64,000 nt of DNA, taken from the NCBI GenBank assembly GCA_016790515.1, contig JAEUOY010000079.1, positions 16,768 through 80,767 on the forward strand, given 5' to 3'. The notes under the pieces were generated by a model that had not been told where the DNA came from, ran no database searches, and was given only the letters and a program-made list of their open reading frames with translations. Made by a program: the position numbers and the translations under genes. Shown piece by piece: positions 32,752-37,549 of this stretch. How positions within the stretch are numbered: position 1 is the first letter of the stretch; each line of letters begins with the position of its first letter. This stretch comes from Burkholderiaceae bacterium. GTDB taxonomy: Bacteria > Pseudomonadota > Gammaproteobacteria > Burkholderiales > Burkholderiaceae_C.

Positions 32752-34095
32752 TCAGGCCGGCGCAGCGAGCCTGCGAACATCGCGCACGCTGTACGACAGG
32801 CCATGCTTCGAGCAGGTGGCACAGAACGGGTGCCGGTACTTGGCTGCCTCCAGTTCGGCATGCGGCGTGGCCAGGAAGTCCAGGCCGAGCATGTTGGGCT
32901 TGTCGTAGACGCTGCAGCACAGCGCGACGCTGCCGTCGTGGTTGATCACCGTCTGGTTGAAGCGCAGTTCGCAGTCATGCTGCTCGCTGCGTTGGGCGCG
33001 GATGCGCGGCAGGTAGACCTGCGGCGGCTCGATCAGCGAATCGAGGATCGGATCGGGGGTGCCACGACCTTCGAGCAAGTCGACCAGGCGCTCGAGCGGC
33101 TGGTAGAACGCGGCGATCGGGTGGTGCTCGAAACCCAGTTCGTCGCACAGGGCCCGCACCGCCGCCACCTCGGCCTCGCCGCCCTTGTACAGGTGGTGGC
33201 CCACCCAGACGCGGGTCGAGGCCTTGGCCTGGTCGAGCCAGTAGCGCAGCAGGTACATGTTGGCCTTGACCAGCCGAAGGTCGCCGCGCGCATGGGTGCG
33301 GGCATAGGACGCCGGCGTGAAGCCCGACAACGAGATCTTCAGGTTGTCGGGGTTGGCGCGCGCCAGCTCGCGCAGGCCGCGGTCGACATTGAGGTTGGTC
33401 GACAGATGCACTGCAAGACCATGCCGGCGCACCGCGCCGATCAGCGCCGGCAGATCGGGGTGCAGCAACGGCTCGCCCCAGTTGAAGAGCCAGACCGCGG
33501 GCCGTTCGGCCACCCGCTCGGCGACGATCTTGTCGAGGATGCGCTCGAACAGCGCCAGTTGCATGAAGCCCCTGGGCCGGTCGGCGGCTGCGAAGTTGCC
33601 GACCGGGCAGGTGGGACAGCGCAGGTTGCAGGTGCCGACGACATCGATCGCATAGACATAGGTCGCCGACTCGCGCGGCGCATGGCGCAGCAGCATGCGG
33701 CCCTGGGCGGGATCGAAGACCTCGGGCGCCAGGTGCTCTCGCGGACGGACCCGGTCGAGGGCTGCCTGCACCGCGGCATCGGGCATCCGCCGGGTCGCCG
33801 AACGCTCCAGCCAGTGCAGTGCGACCTCCCACAGCCCCAGCTCGTACAGCCGCATGCCGATCAGCGGCAGGCTGTCGAACCAGCAGGCGTGGCCGCCGTC
33901 CTCGGCGAAGGCCCGCTCCAGCAGGTCCAGCGCCGGCGCGACGGCCCGTTGCTCGAGCCGGATCATGCCCAGGTTGTGGCGCAGCCCGGGCTGCCAGGGA
34001 TCGCCGGCCAGCAGCGTCTCGTAGGCGCTGGCGGCGGCGTCGAACCGCCCCTGGCGGTGCAGCGCCAGCGCCTGTTCGACCGCGTCGGCGCTCAA
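32752..34095 (-). CDS. Radical SAM protein with N-terminal TPR-like region and SPASM-like tail
   Basis: A 447-aa protein. The TTG start at 34095 overlaps the stop of the glycosyltransferase gene (TTGA). Residues 1-100 are helical TPR-like repeats (ALALHRQGRFDAAASAYETLLAGDP). The radical SAM cluster motif CNLRCPTC (CxxxCxxC) is near residue 153, followed by LFNWGEPLLHPDLPALI, and the C-terminus has CCSVYDKPN and FCATCSKHG cysteines of a SPASM-like auxiliary cluster. Such enzymes modify peptides or sugars. Third gene of a coupled operon with a repeat-rich PEP-CTERM protein and a GT41 enzyme; that repeat protein is the obvious candidate substrate, by inference only. Confidence 0.83.
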   Translation of the reverse strand: MSADAVEQALALHRQGRFDAAASAYETLLAGDPWQPGLRHNLGMIRLEQRAVAPALDLLERAFAEDGGHACWFDSLPLIGMRLYELGLWEVALHWLERSATRRMPDAAVQAALDRVRPREHLAPEVFDPAQGRMLLRHAPRESATYVYAIDVVGTCNLRCPTCPVGNFAAADRPRGFMQLALFERILDKIVAERVAERPAVWLFNWGEPLLHPDLPALIGAVRRHGLAVHLSTNLNVDRGLRELARANPDNLKISLSGFTPASYARTHARGDLRLVKANMYLLRYWLDQAKASTRVWVGHHLYKGGEAEVAAVRALCDELGFEHHPIAAFYQPLERLVDLLEGRGTPDPILDSLIEPPQVYLPRIRAQRSEQHDCELRFNQTVINHDGSVALCCSVYDKPNMLGLDFLATPHAELEAAKYRHPFCATCSKHGLSYSVRDVRRLAAPA

Positions 34096-36002
34096 GCGCT
34101 CACCTCGCCGGCCTGCAGCGCGGCGACGCGTCTCGCGTACACCGCCTCCAGCGCCCGCGCCAGGCCGGTGGCCTGCGCCAGCGGACTGGCCAGCAGCCGG
34201 CCGCGCAGGCTGCTGCGCCAGATTGCCCGGCGCTCGGTGTCGGCGGCCAGCGCAGCAGCGCGCTCGACAAACTCCTGCGGTGTGTCGACGGCGAGTTCGG
34301 GCAGGCCCAGGGACTGCACGATGGCCAGGGTCTGGCGCGACACCGGACGCTGCCACGGCAGCGTCAGCACCGGCACGCCCATGCAGAGCGCCTCCAGCGT
34401 GGTCTGCAGGCCCGAGAACGGGAACGGGTCGAAGGCGATGTCGATCTCGTCGTACTCGGCCAGCATCGCCGCGTGCGGCGAAGCCGGGCGCAGTTCGAGC
34501 CGGTCGGCGCCGATGCCGTGGGGGGCGAAGCGCCGGCGGGTGTGTTCGGCAAAGGCCGGGTCGGCGAAGCTGGCCCACTTCAGGATCAGCCGGCTGGCCG
34601 GCACCCGCAGCAGCACCCGCGACCACAGCGCGACCGCCGCATCGCCCAGCTTCGCCGGGTTGTTGAACGAGCCGAAGCTCACCACGCCCATGCGCTGCGA
34701 CGGCAGGCTGGACGCGAACGGCGGCAGGTAGGCGGGCGGCTGGTAGACGAAATGCAGCCCGGGCAGCCGCTCCAGCGGCTCGGTGAAGAAGGCCTCGGCA
34801 CCCGGGCCGGCCAGACGGTCGCCCAGCACGACCGCATCGACCTCGGCCAGCCCGGTGCTCGCGAACCAGCCCAGCCACGACAACTGCACCGGTGCCGCGC
34901 GTTGCGCCAGCACGCCCGGGCGACCGTGCTCGGTGTGGCCCGACAGGTCGACCAGCACGTCGATGGCGTGCCGGCGGATCCGCTGGCCCAGCGCGGGGTC
35001 GTCCAGCGATGCCACCTCGTGCCAGTGTTCGGCATCGCGGCGCATCTGCTGCGCCAGCGCATCGGGCGGGCCGGGCTGGCGCCGGTGGTCGAAACAATGG
35101 ACTTCGACGGCATCCCGGTCATGCGCGGCGAGCAGGGGCGCAAACAGCCAGCCCACCGGGTGCTGCCAGAAATCGCCGCTGAGGTAGCCGATGCGCAGCC
35201 GGCCGGCGCGGCGGCGCGGAAACGGCAGCGATTCGGCGGCCGGCCACAGCCCGCCAGCATGGGCGGCGGCCTGGCGCAGTTCGCTGGCCGCCGGCGTGGG
35301 GTCGTACTGCATCGCCAGCAGCAGGTTCGAGGCGGCACGGCGATCACGCGGCGCGCAGCGCAACGCCTGCGTCAGCGCGGCGCGCGCCGATGCGACGTCG
35401 CCGCTGCCCAGCAGCGCCACGCCCAGGTTGATCCAGCCTTCGGTCAGGTGCGGATCGCGTGCCAGCGCATAACGGTACGCCGCGATCGCGTCGAACAGGC
35501 GGCCCTGGGCCTGCAGCGCGATGCCGGCGTTGACATGCACCGCCGCCTGTTCGGGATCGAGCCGCAAGGCCTGCTGGTCGGCCGCTGCGGCGCCGGCCGC
35601 ATCGCCGAGCTGGCGCAGGGCGAGCGCCAAGTTGACCCAGGCGGCCGCCAGCCCCGGCTCCAGTGCGAGCGCCGCGCGGTGGCGCTCGGCGGCCTCGGCC
35701 GGACGGCCCGACTCGTACAACAGCAGCCCGTGGTTGGTGAGCGCGGCTGCCGACCGTGGCGCCGCGACCACCGCCAGCCGCAGCACCGCCTCCGCCAGCG
35801 CGGTATCGCCTGCCGCGCGATGCTGCTGCGCCAATGCCAGCCGGGCGACCAGCAGCCGATCCGCGCCCGCGGCGGCGCAGGCCGATTCGAAGCCCCGCAA
35901 GTCACCACTGCCCTGCGCCGCAACCGCCATCGCGGGCCAGCGCCCGGGCGAACGGCCGTCTCGGATCGCCGCGAGGTAGCGCTCGCGCGCCGCTGACCTC
36001 AC
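34092..36002 (-). CDS. TPR-containing GT41-family glycosyltransferase (SPINDLY/OGT-like)
   Basis: A 636-aa protein. GTG 36002 overlaps the stop of the PEP-CTERM gene (GTGA). Residues about 55-230 are TPR repeats (AAWVNLALALRQLGDAAGAA, LTEGWINLGVALLGSGD). The catalytic part starts with RIGYLSGDFWQHPVGWLFAP (the His-Pro of OGT-type enzymes), continues with VDLSGHTEHGRPGVLAQRAAP and SFNNPAKLGDAAVALWSRVL, and ends FSGLQTTLEALCMGVPVLTLP. Bacterial homologues transfer GlcNAc or other sugars to Ser/Thr (or Asn) of proteins. Placement between the surface protein and a radical SAM enzyme suggests protein modification before or during export. Confidence 0.88.
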   Translation of the reverse strand: MRSAARERYLAAIRDGRSPGRWPAMAVAAQGSGDLRGFESACAAAGADRLLVARLALAQQHRAAGDTALAEAVLRLAVVAAPRSAAALTNHGLLLYESGRPAEAAERHRAALALEPGLAAAWVNLALALRQLGDAAGAAAADQQALRLDPEQAAVHVNAGIALQAQGRLFDAIAAYRYALARDPHLTEGWINLGVALLGSGDVASARAALTQALRCAPRDRRAASNLLLAMQYDPTPAASELRQAAAHAGGLWPAAESLPFPRRRAGRLRIGYLSGDFWQHPVGWLFAPLLAAHDRDAVEVHCFDHRRQPGPPDALAQQMRRDAEHWHEVASLDDPALGQRIRRHAIDVLVDLSGHTEHGRPGVLAQRAAPVQLSWLGWFASTGLAEVDAVVLGDRLAGPGAEAFFTEPLERLPGLHFVYQPPAYLPPFASSLPSQRMGVVSFGSFNNPAKLGDAAVALWSRVLLRVPASRLILKWASFADPAFAEHTRRRFAPHGIGADRLELRPASPHAAMLAEYDEIDIAFDPFPFSGLQTTLEALCMGVPVLTLPWQRPVSRQTLAIVQSLGLPELAVDTPQEFVERAAALAADTERRAIWRSSLRGRLLASPLAQATGLARALEAVYARRVAALQAGEVSA

Positions 36003-37549
36003 CGGCGCGTGACGCGTCGGCGCACGGACCAGCGCATCAGGCCGAGCGCCGCCAGGGCCGCAACCACCAGGCCGGGGCTGCCCGGCTCCGGCACGCCCTG
36101 GGCCGCAAAGGTACCGGTGAACTCGAAGACGACATCGCGGCCGTCGGCCCCCGGGTCGGCGAACTGATCGGTGCCCAGCGTCAGCGTCAGCGAGAACGGG
36201 CCAGGGCCCACGCCGGCGTGAACCTGCAGCAGCAGGTTCAGGTCGCCGCCGAACGGCATCAACAGGCTGCCTGGCACGAAGCCCAGCAGGTCGAACGCGC
36301 CGGCGTCGGCCCCACCGAGCATCGCGCTCAGCAGCCGCAGCCCGGTCAGTTCCGGCGGAAATCCGCCATCGCTGCTGGCGTTGAAGACATCGACGCCGAA
36401 GCCCTGGCCCGGCGCGAGCGGGCCGAGCGCATGACTGCCGCCGGTGCCGTAGTTGCTGTCGAACTGCGGGCCGACCGCCGCGCTGCCGGCGTAGGTCGAC
36501 GACGTGATCCGGCAGGCCGCGGCGGCCCCGTACGAACTGCTGCCGGCCTCGCACGCGATCGCCTGGGTCGACCCCGCTGTGGGCACGTAGAAGCCCGGCG
36601 GCGCGGGATTGGGTGCCGTCGCACCCACGACGTCGACAAAGCTGCCCACCGGCGCCAGCAGCGCCGCCGACTGGCCGGCCGTCGGGACGTAGGTCCCCAC
36701 CGGTGCCAGCAAGGCCGAGGTCTGACCGGACATTGCCACGTAGCTGCCGGGGGGCGCCAGCTGCGCTGCCGACTGGCCGGGCGTCGGCACGTAGCTTCCC
36801 GGAGCTGCTGGTGTCGGGGCCGTGGCGCCGCCGGTGGAGTAGCTGCCGGCCGGCGTGACGGTCGCCGCTGTCTGGCCGATCAGGTCCACGTAGGTGCCGG
36901 GCGGTGCAGCGGTCGGTGCCGTGGCACCGAAGGACGAAACGAAGCTGCCGGCGGGCGCCGGCAGCGCCTGCGACTGGCCGGCCGTCGGCACGTACCTGCC
37001 GGGTGGCGCGAGCAAGGCCGTGGTCTGGCCCGCCAGCGGCACGTAGCTGCCCGCAGGCGCCAGCAGCGCTTCGGACTGGCCGGCCAGCGGCACATACCTG
37101 CCCACAGGCGCCAGCTGTGCAGCAGACTGGCCGGCCGACGCCACGTAGCTGCCCGCGGGTGCCGGCGTCGGCGTGATGGCTCCGCCGGTGGTGTAGGTGC
37201 CGGCCGGCGTGAGGGTCGCCGCAGACTGGCCGATCGAATTCACATAGGTGCCGGGTGGCGCAAGCGTCGCGGCCGTGGCGCCGGAACTCGGCACGTAGCT
37301 GCCGGCAGGTGCCAGCTGGTAACTGGTCTGGCCGCTGGTCGGGACATAGGTGCCCGGCAAGGCGGCCATGCAGGGTTCGTTGCCCGAGCTGCTGTAATAG
37401 CCCGGAGTGCATGCGGTATCCGCCCAGGCCATCGGGGACAGACCGAGCGCGCACAAGGCTGCCACGCTGGCATTCGGAACCCAGGGGAATCGGCCGGCAG
37501 GCGGCGCGATCGACTTGCGTCCGACCTGCGTCGGGATGGGCTTGTGCAT
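35999..37549 (-). CDS. Repeat-rich exported PEP-CTERM protein
   Basis: A 516-aa exported protein. The N-terminal leader is long, with the hydrophobic core SVAALCALGLSPMAWA (about residues 28-43). Residues 62-334 hold about 16 copies of a 17-residue unit with core PAGSYVPxxGQSxAxLA. A cysteine-bearing unit (ACTPGYYSSSGNEPC) precedes them. Residues about 340-485 form a non-repetitive globular part with FNASSDGGFPPELTGLRLLS. The C-terminus is a textbook exosortase signal: VPEPG at 486, a hydrophobic helix, then a basic tail (RRRVTRR). No exosortase gene is in the window. First gene of the PEP-CTERM/GT41/radical SAM operon. Confidence 0.85.
   Translation of the reverse strand: MHKPIPTQVGRKSIAPPAGRFPWVPNASVAALCALGLSPMAWADTACTPGYYSSSGNEPCMAALPGTYVPTSGQTSYQLAPAGSYVPSSGATAATLAPPGTYVNSIGQSAATLTPAGTYTTGGAITPTPAPAGSYVASAGQSAAQLAPVGRYVPLAGQSEALLAPAGSYVPLAGQTTALLAPPGRYVPTAGQSQALPAPAGSFVSSFGATAPTAAPPGTYVDLIGQTAATVTPAGSYSTGGATAPTPAAPGSYVPTPGQSAAQLAPPGSYVAMSGQTSALLAPVGTYVPTAGQSAALLAPVGSFVDVVGATAPNPAPPGFYVPTAGSTQAIACEAGSSSYGAAAACRITSSTYAGSAAVGPQFDSNYGTGGSHALGPLAPGQGFGVDVFNASSDGGFPPELTGLRLLSAMLGGADAGAFDLLGFVPGSLLMPFGGDLNLLLQVHAGVGPGPFSLTLTLGTDQFADPGADGRDVVFEFTGTFAAQGVPEPGSPGLVVAALAALGLMRWSVRRRVTRR
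36548..37366 (-). repeat. About 16 tandem 51-bp coding repeats (17-aa units)
   Basis: Tandem units of mostly 17 residues within the PEP-CTERM protein: G-[ST]-[YF]-V-x-x-x-G-[QA]-[ST]-x-A-x-L-A-P. Units 2-6 and 9-13 correspond in order, including two shorter 16-residue units (TPAGTYTTGGAITPTP and TPAGSYSTGGATAPTP), so a seven-unit block was duplicated after the basic repeat formed. Confidence 0.85.

Follow-up and report, generated by a model that had tools for sequence, protein, structure and literature searches.

A recurring bacterial gene trio of exported repeat protein, GT41 glycosyltransferase and TPR-radical SAM enzyme as a probable protein modification cassette

The window, that is the whole 64,000-nucleotide stretch of Burkholderiaceae DNA that was analysed, carries three adjoining genes on its minus strand that run from position 37549 down to 32752 and encode a repeat protein, a TPR-GT41 enzyme and a TPR-radical SAM enzyme. 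The first gene (35999..37549, minus strand, ATG start) was assigned from its translation, Pfam and NCBIfam profiles and repeat statistics to an exported repeat protein of 516 aa, within which a repeat array occupies residues 63-332 (36554..37363, minus strand), as judged from its limits and the consensus over loci. It is followed by a TPR-GT41 glycosyltransferase of 636 aa (34092..36002, minus strand), with a GTG start at 36002 and a stop codon ending at 34092, and by a TPR-radical SAM protein of 447 aa with a short SPASM-like C-terminus (32752..34095, minus strand) and a TTG start at 34095. The GTG of the GT41 gene overlaps the TGA of the repeat gene (GTGA) and the TTG of the radical SAM gene overlaps the TGA of the GT41 gene (TTGA); these overlaps, claimed in the initial annotation for three minus-strand genes, were borne out by the translations and the start and stop positions. 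The sequence GAGGTGAG lies 3 bases upstream of the radical SAM TTG start. A consensus scan covering the sigma-70 type returned no sigma-70-like promoter for the trio.

Relatives of the locus were found by a pattern scan of genome contigs with the radical SAM protein, which resulted in 11 loci. L002 and L003 were identical over 3497 bases comprising the two enzyme genes and were therefore merged, giving 11 lineages including the window. The three genes adjoin in 8 of these 11 lineages, in one of them (L007) through contig overlap. The order repeat, GT41, radical SAM in the same direction is found in the window, L002/L003 and L004, while L005 has GT41 reversed, radical SAM, repeat; L006 has repeat reversed, radical SAM, GT41 reversed; and L011 has repeat reversed, radical SAM, GT41. 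At L007 a reversed GT41 gene precedes the radical SAM gene, and the repeat gene is located on a contig edge that overlaps the L007 edge by exactly 149 bp. The order at L012 is repeat reversed, radical SAM, GT41 reversed. Here (L012:6056-9552) the radical SAM frame is without its cofactor-binding core, the repeat gene is broken into two frames and the GT41 gene has just a short one; the locus looks broken, as would a decaying copy or an assembly error. At L009 and L010 the repeat gene adjoins the radical SAM gene and the clusters break at contig ends inside the repeats. In both genomes another contig ends in repeats beside a GT41 gene that groups with the GT41s of the trio loci (cassette GT41s), the contig ends overlapping by 24 bp in L010, which could be chance inside repeats, and not at all in L009. 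L008 showed no trio partner; its contig starts roughly 690 bp before the radical SAM frame, and a search of its genome at E<=1e-8 gave no repeat protein.

The repeat protein was found in 11 of the 12 genomes searched, and every repeat-protein match listed (E<=1e-8) lies either at a trio or at a contig end compatible with one, so that none of the 24 GT41 paralogues sampled from these genomes lies beside one. Judged by eye, no fourth conserved gene was common to more than two loci, several of the contigs being short and farther partners possible. Other gene matches near the loci were set aside as shadow frames of the trio, by eye from their coordinates, or as isolated pairs. The association of the three genes is not an accident of the window genome. 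A functional link between them is supported, because the genes adjoin in eight lineages, fit in two more and do so in different orders.

The repeat protein of the window consists of a signal peptide (by eye), an N-terminal C..C cap, 16 repeats, a C-terminal C..C cap, a further domain and a PEP-CTERM-like tail, the Cys-containing caps flanking both ends of the array. The claim of about 16 repeats of 17 residues thus stood for the number of units but not strictly for their length, which averages 16.9 residues with some units deviating from 17; Tandem Repeats Finder reported periods of 51 and 102 bp. The consensus over loci is A-P-[AP]-G-[ST]-[YF]-V-x-x-x-G-[AQ]-[ST]-A-x-T-x. Repeat statistics were calculated for 225 units, percentages being means over 11 sequences, in a set that left out L003 and L042, counted as a 17th window unit what is really the C-terminal cap and took L009 and L039 from one genome. 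Because units had to show the Gly spacing and belong to runs in which position 6 was aromatic in >=60% of cases, the figures for Gly4 and for the aromatic position 6 (96%) are partly built in by the selection. Gly11 was found in 86%, Ala/Gln12 in 84% and Ser/Thr13 in 85% of the units, and position 1 was A in 76% and C in 16%. The split at position 13 (48 T vs 37 S) could fit an O-acceptor, and a structural hydroxyl would look alike. Such a structural role may in fact apply to the conserved Ser/Thr, given that the repeats hit a Cys-rich family in which Gly and aromatic residues follow a similar pattern: PF07699 (Ephrin_rec_like) matched residues 50-94 of the window protein at E 7.7e-10. The protein at L005:9444-12038 contains 18 Cys-rich Ephrin_rec_like stretches in a bacterial protein (E 7.3e-105), and its repeat is apparently a Cys-containing form of the nearly Cys-less repeat of the window. 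Divergence is faster in the repeat part (window vs L004, dN 0.58/dS 1.10). The AlphaFold model of the repeat protein was unusable (pLDDT 36).

The C-terminal ends of the repeat proteins were readable in nine lineages, L008 having no repeat protein and L012 being broken. The tail of the window protein scored 14.6 bits with Pfam (cut-off 20.7) and 16.1 with NCBIfam (cut-off 16), which is borderline, and the tails of L002 (26.1 bits), L004 (22.5) and L007 (20.9) are above the Pfam cut-off. Two exosortase genes (PF09721) are present in the window's own genome and 9 of 12 genomes contain such genes. The exosortase tag proposed in the initial annotation is a weaker label than it was made out to be: the genome has two exosortases, and the tail barely reaches the NCBIfam cut-off and misses that of Pfam. 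PEP-CTERM was found in 4 of the 9 readable lineages, the other five having another tail or none recognised. The repeat protein of L009 carries Ig-like domains of the bacterial type and ends in a serralysin-type C-terminus that narrowly passes its cut-off, L056, the partner contig of L010, encodes an autotransporter beta-domain (E 7.7e-36), L005 ends in a weak dockerin-like match under cut-off, L011 has a barrel-like end by eye, and the profile scan gave no clear tail family for L006. Taken literally, this is the outcome that the initial annotation had named as refuting it, homologues being mostly (5/9 readable lineages) without a PEP-CTERM neighbour, and PEP-CTERM does not define the trio, but those five keep the repeat protein. 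The repeat is constant and the export module variable, and a PEP-CTERM reading is too narrow. As the part of the exported protein that recurs across the lineages in which it was found, the repeat region is the obvious candidate for a common substrate. The repeat protein at L004:3712-6051 has both a type V extended signal peptide (PF13018, E 3.3e-12) and a PEP-CTERM tail.

The second gene had been described as a TPR/OGT-like GT41 enzyme, a description with which the profile scan agrees: PF13844 matched at E 2.3e-31 and 109.1 bits, well over the cut-off of 25, together with TPRs. The nearest solved structure by sequence was SPINDLY (E 7.6e-78). Membership of the HMW1C-type NGTs was considered and rejected, as the NCBIfam NGT model NF049992 gave 24.6 bits against a cut-off of 1000 and Asn accounts for only 67 of 3825 repeat residues in the 225 units. 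The active-site Lys corresponding to SPINDLY K665 is kept in 10/10 cassette GT41s and 24/24 paralogues, and the His corresponding to H495 in 9/9 readable cassette GT41s, L012 being without the His region and outside this count, and in 23/24 paralogues. Mutants of these two residues are dead in SPINDLY according to the published study (PMC9715652). By this measure the cassette GT41s look active, as do nearly all paralogues. The position of SPINDLY Tyr744, at which human OGT has Cys (PMC9715652), is Phe in 9/10 cassette GT41s vs 3/24 paralogues, and that of Thr748 is changed in 8/10 vs 4/24. As a result of these altered donor-site positions, the donor sugar of the GT41 cannot be read off SPINDLY or OGT.

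GT41 matches occurred in 12 of 12 genomes, several in most, and it could be argued from this abundance that the two enzymes serve other targets, for example general surface glycosylation, with the repeat protein a mere neighbour. We regard this as improbable. The three genes occur together in different orders and orientations, the listed repeat-protein matches all fall at trio loci or fitting contig ends, and the cassette GT41s group apart from the paralogues. In an unrooted tree they split from the 24 sampled paralogues with a support of 91/91, which is below the strict mark of 95, and in 0/500 shuffles; G789:C62, G790:C34 and C46, G791:C125 and C313 and G792:C120 are among the paralogues left out of this sample.

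The window radical SAM protein matched PF04055 at E 7.7e-10, together with TPRs, and among the cassette radical SAM proteins PF04055 was matched in 10/10 and TPR_19 in 8/10. In an alignment of 10 proteins, made without L003 and L012, identity to the window protein is 35-75%, and the CX3CX2C cysteines C156, C160 and C163 are invariant in 10/10, as are five Cys outside this motif (C375, C393, C394, C425 and C428). A full SPASM domain has seven Cys. The SPASM-like cysteines put forward earlier are therefore present as five invariant extra Cys, but these are fewer than seven and the SPASM score of the window protein, 15.3 bits, is under the cut-off of 21.5; the C-terminus appears to be a shortened SPASM/twitch-like end. 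A structure model (pLDDT 84.4) gave radical SAM folds as best matches, namely SuiB, anSMEcpe, a sactipeptide maturase and DesII, with EpeE also matched, at low query-normalised TM-scores (0.35-0.42 for the first ten matches) and 10-17% sequence identity. We take SuiB, anSMEcpe and EpeE to be peptide or protein modifiers and DesII to be a sugar enzyme.

Non-cassette relatives of the radical SAM enzyme are roughly 27-40% identical over the catalytic part, and no TPR match was found in the five that were scanned. The cassette enzymes are separated from five outgroups with a clade support of 78/98 and long branches. Several non-cassette relatives are located in polysaccharide or sugar-nucleotide loci, some of them on plasmids; one (L027) adjoins genes for a DegT aminotransferase, a sugar dehydratase and a nucleotidyl transferase. 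Tandem radical SAM genes were observed beside apparent sugar-nucleotide genes at L029:8565-12354 and near asparagine synthase and perosamine synthetase genes at L030:13392-17321, on a plasmid of Deltaproteobacteria Smac51.

The trio is found in hosts labelled as Pseudomonadota, Thermodesulfobacteriota and Bacteroidota, based on record titles in which labels of MAGs may be wrong. By title, the betaproteobacterial hosts are Burkholderiaceae (one a Pseudacidovorax), Oxalobacteraceae (including strain BJB404) and another betaproteobacterium, and the others include Lysobacterales, Acetobacteraceae, Rhodospirillales, Phenylobacterium, a Cryomorphaceae MAG and Desulfosediminicola flagellatus IMCC35005, which is represented by a complete genome. 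Two hosts are recorded under strain names, not as MAGs. In the family, 399 genomes were searched for the radical SAM gene and for the repeat gene; among the matches listed, both searches pointed to one pair of genomes, that of the window and the L003 host, 3-4 candidates having been scored in each genome. Among other genomes related to the L005 and L004 hosts, 0/116 and 0/119, respectively, had a match at E<=1e-80 among the matches listed, no more than 14 candidates being scored in each genome. Apart from the own genome, 398 genomes of the phylum yielded only distant radical SAM genes, in three genomes (best 266 bits vs 735), and a PF07699 search of 398 phylum genomes gave one match (a 190-aa frame) but was insensitive, missing the own genome. 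Among plasmids, the radical SAM protein matched two distant records. Viral contigs contained six distant radical SAM genes, with best segments 27-32% identical, and no repeat-protein or GT41 match in the stretches around them. Comparison of the window with the same-genus genome (L003/L026) placed every DNA match inside the radical SAM and GT41 genes and none in the flanks compared. Rarity together with the absence of a flank match in a same-genus genome points to transfer of the trio as a unit.

Pairwise distances of the radical SAM and GT41 proteins agree over nine lineages (r 0.84, 1/20000 permutations; L003, L008 and L012 not included), an agreement that is also expected from shared descent. 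Between the window and L002, dN/dS values were 0.20/0.62 for the radical SAM gene and 0.41/0.96 for the GT41 gene. The repeats and TPRs are compositionally simple and the GC content of the window is 71%, and chance clustering of TPR-rich, GC-rich genes, with the similarity between loci being low-complexity noise, could therefore be proposed. This explanation was rejected and is exceedingly improbable, as it is contradicted by linkage across lineages in hosts labelled as three phyla, by the level of identity and invariant cofactor Cys of the radical SAM proteins, and by dN being lower than dS.

We propose that the trio works as a dedicated cassette that moves horizontally and modifies a single surface or secreted repeat protein, a reading that we consider probable from the sequence comparisons. 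Most likely, O-glycosylation of the repeats by the GT41 enzyme would take place in the cytoplasm, with a second modification, to peptide or sugar, added by the radical SAM enzyme. In the window the overlapping genes would let ribosomes continue from the repeat protein straight into the two enzymes on a single message, other lineages having other orders. By analogy with OGT and SPINDLY, the TPR domains of both enzymes may hold the extended, low-complexity repeats. The GT41 would then put a sugar on repeat hydroxyls, most likely on the conserved Ser/Thr of G-[AQ]-[ST], before export, and the radical SAM enzyme would make its change on the same repeats, more likely on the peptide than on the attached sugar. 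The product would exit by the module encoded in its own gene, through Sec and exosortase in the window and apparently through type I secretion or autotransport elsewhere, as the modules suggest. The end product could be a polymer at the cell surface that bears one composite modification in many identical copies, and a role in adhesion or matrix is our guess. The modification system suggested in the initial annotation, with the repeats as acceptors, is thus retained as a proposal on account of the linkage and the shared repeat, while its PEP-CTERM part proved too narrow.

The radical SAM target may be sugar rather than peptide, because relatives of the enzyme sit in polysaccharide and sugar-nucleotide clusters. 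Action on a nucleotide sugar or on the GT41-attached sugar, by deoxygenation or epimerisation for example, would yield an unusual O-glycan on the repeats and is the most serious competitor, though we rate it as rather doubtful. Besides the plasmid loci of polysaccharide type and the sugar-nucleotide neighbours of L027, DesII among the closest folds and the atypical donor site of the GT41, with its changed Thr748 position, speak for it. Set against this are the TPR that leads most cassette enzymes (8/10) but was not found in the five non-cassette relatives scanned, which suggests a protein-bound substrate, and the finding that no sugar-nucleotide gene is common to the cassette loci in the stretches compared.

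A description of the trio was not recognised in open-licence literature, which is weak evidence of absence and in line with what had been claimed, and no open-licence papers were found joining "Radical SAM" with "GT41" or "Ephrin_rec_like" with "radical SAM". If the proposed cassette is real, it would provide a GT41 system whose acceptor protein is indicated by gene linkage and presents its acceptor site many times over, along with a radical SAM enzyme that acts on a long protein destined for export; a repeat tag modified many times could serve for making decorated protein polymers. The more far-reaching claim of a secretion-independent, phylum-hopping system, whose SPINDLY-like glycosyltransferase and TPR-guided radical SAM enzyme would together place a single composite modification of a kind not seen before on each unit of a long tandem-repeat surface protein, is put forward tentatively, as conceivable rather than probable.

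Several known systems resemble parts of the proposed cassette. RiPP precursors are short and consist of leader and core, and a RiPP precursor system was rejected for the trio, the candidate substrate being 516 aa long with a signal peptide (by eye). An anSME modifies a protein that is exported afterwards. Like anSME and other radical SAM/SPASM modifiers such as SuiB and EpeE, the trio enzyme has a radical SAM fold with extra C-terminal Cys, but it differs in having a TPR in front, a shorter Cys set and a long repetitive candidate substrate. The Ephrin_rec_like family (PF07699) shares the repeat motif with the window and L005, but its Cys at repeat position 1 is mostly Ala in trio repeats. PEP-CTERM/exosortase proteins share the sorting tag, in four lineages (borderline in the window), with exosortase in the own genome, in contrast to the other ends in five readable lineages of the trio. 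In one study, the Ser/Thr/Asn enrichment of PEP-CTERM proteins is taken as a hint of carbohydrate linkage (PMC1569441), and another reports adjoining genes for radical SAM and glycosyltransferase proteins on a Brachyspira plasmid, with function predicted only (PMC4267127). HMW1C/NGT adhesin glycosylation (PMC3012730) likewise pairs a GT41-related enzyme with an exported adhesin, whereas the trio misses the NGT cut-off, has repeats nearly without Asn and adds a radical SAM enzyme. With SPINDLY and OGT (PMC9715652), the trio GT41 has in common the TPR superhelix, the GT41 catalytic lobes and the kept Lys and His, but it is bacterial, adjoins the gene of one exported repeat protein and, across the cassette GT41s, has the Thr748 position mostly changed and the Tyr744 position mostly occupied by Phe.
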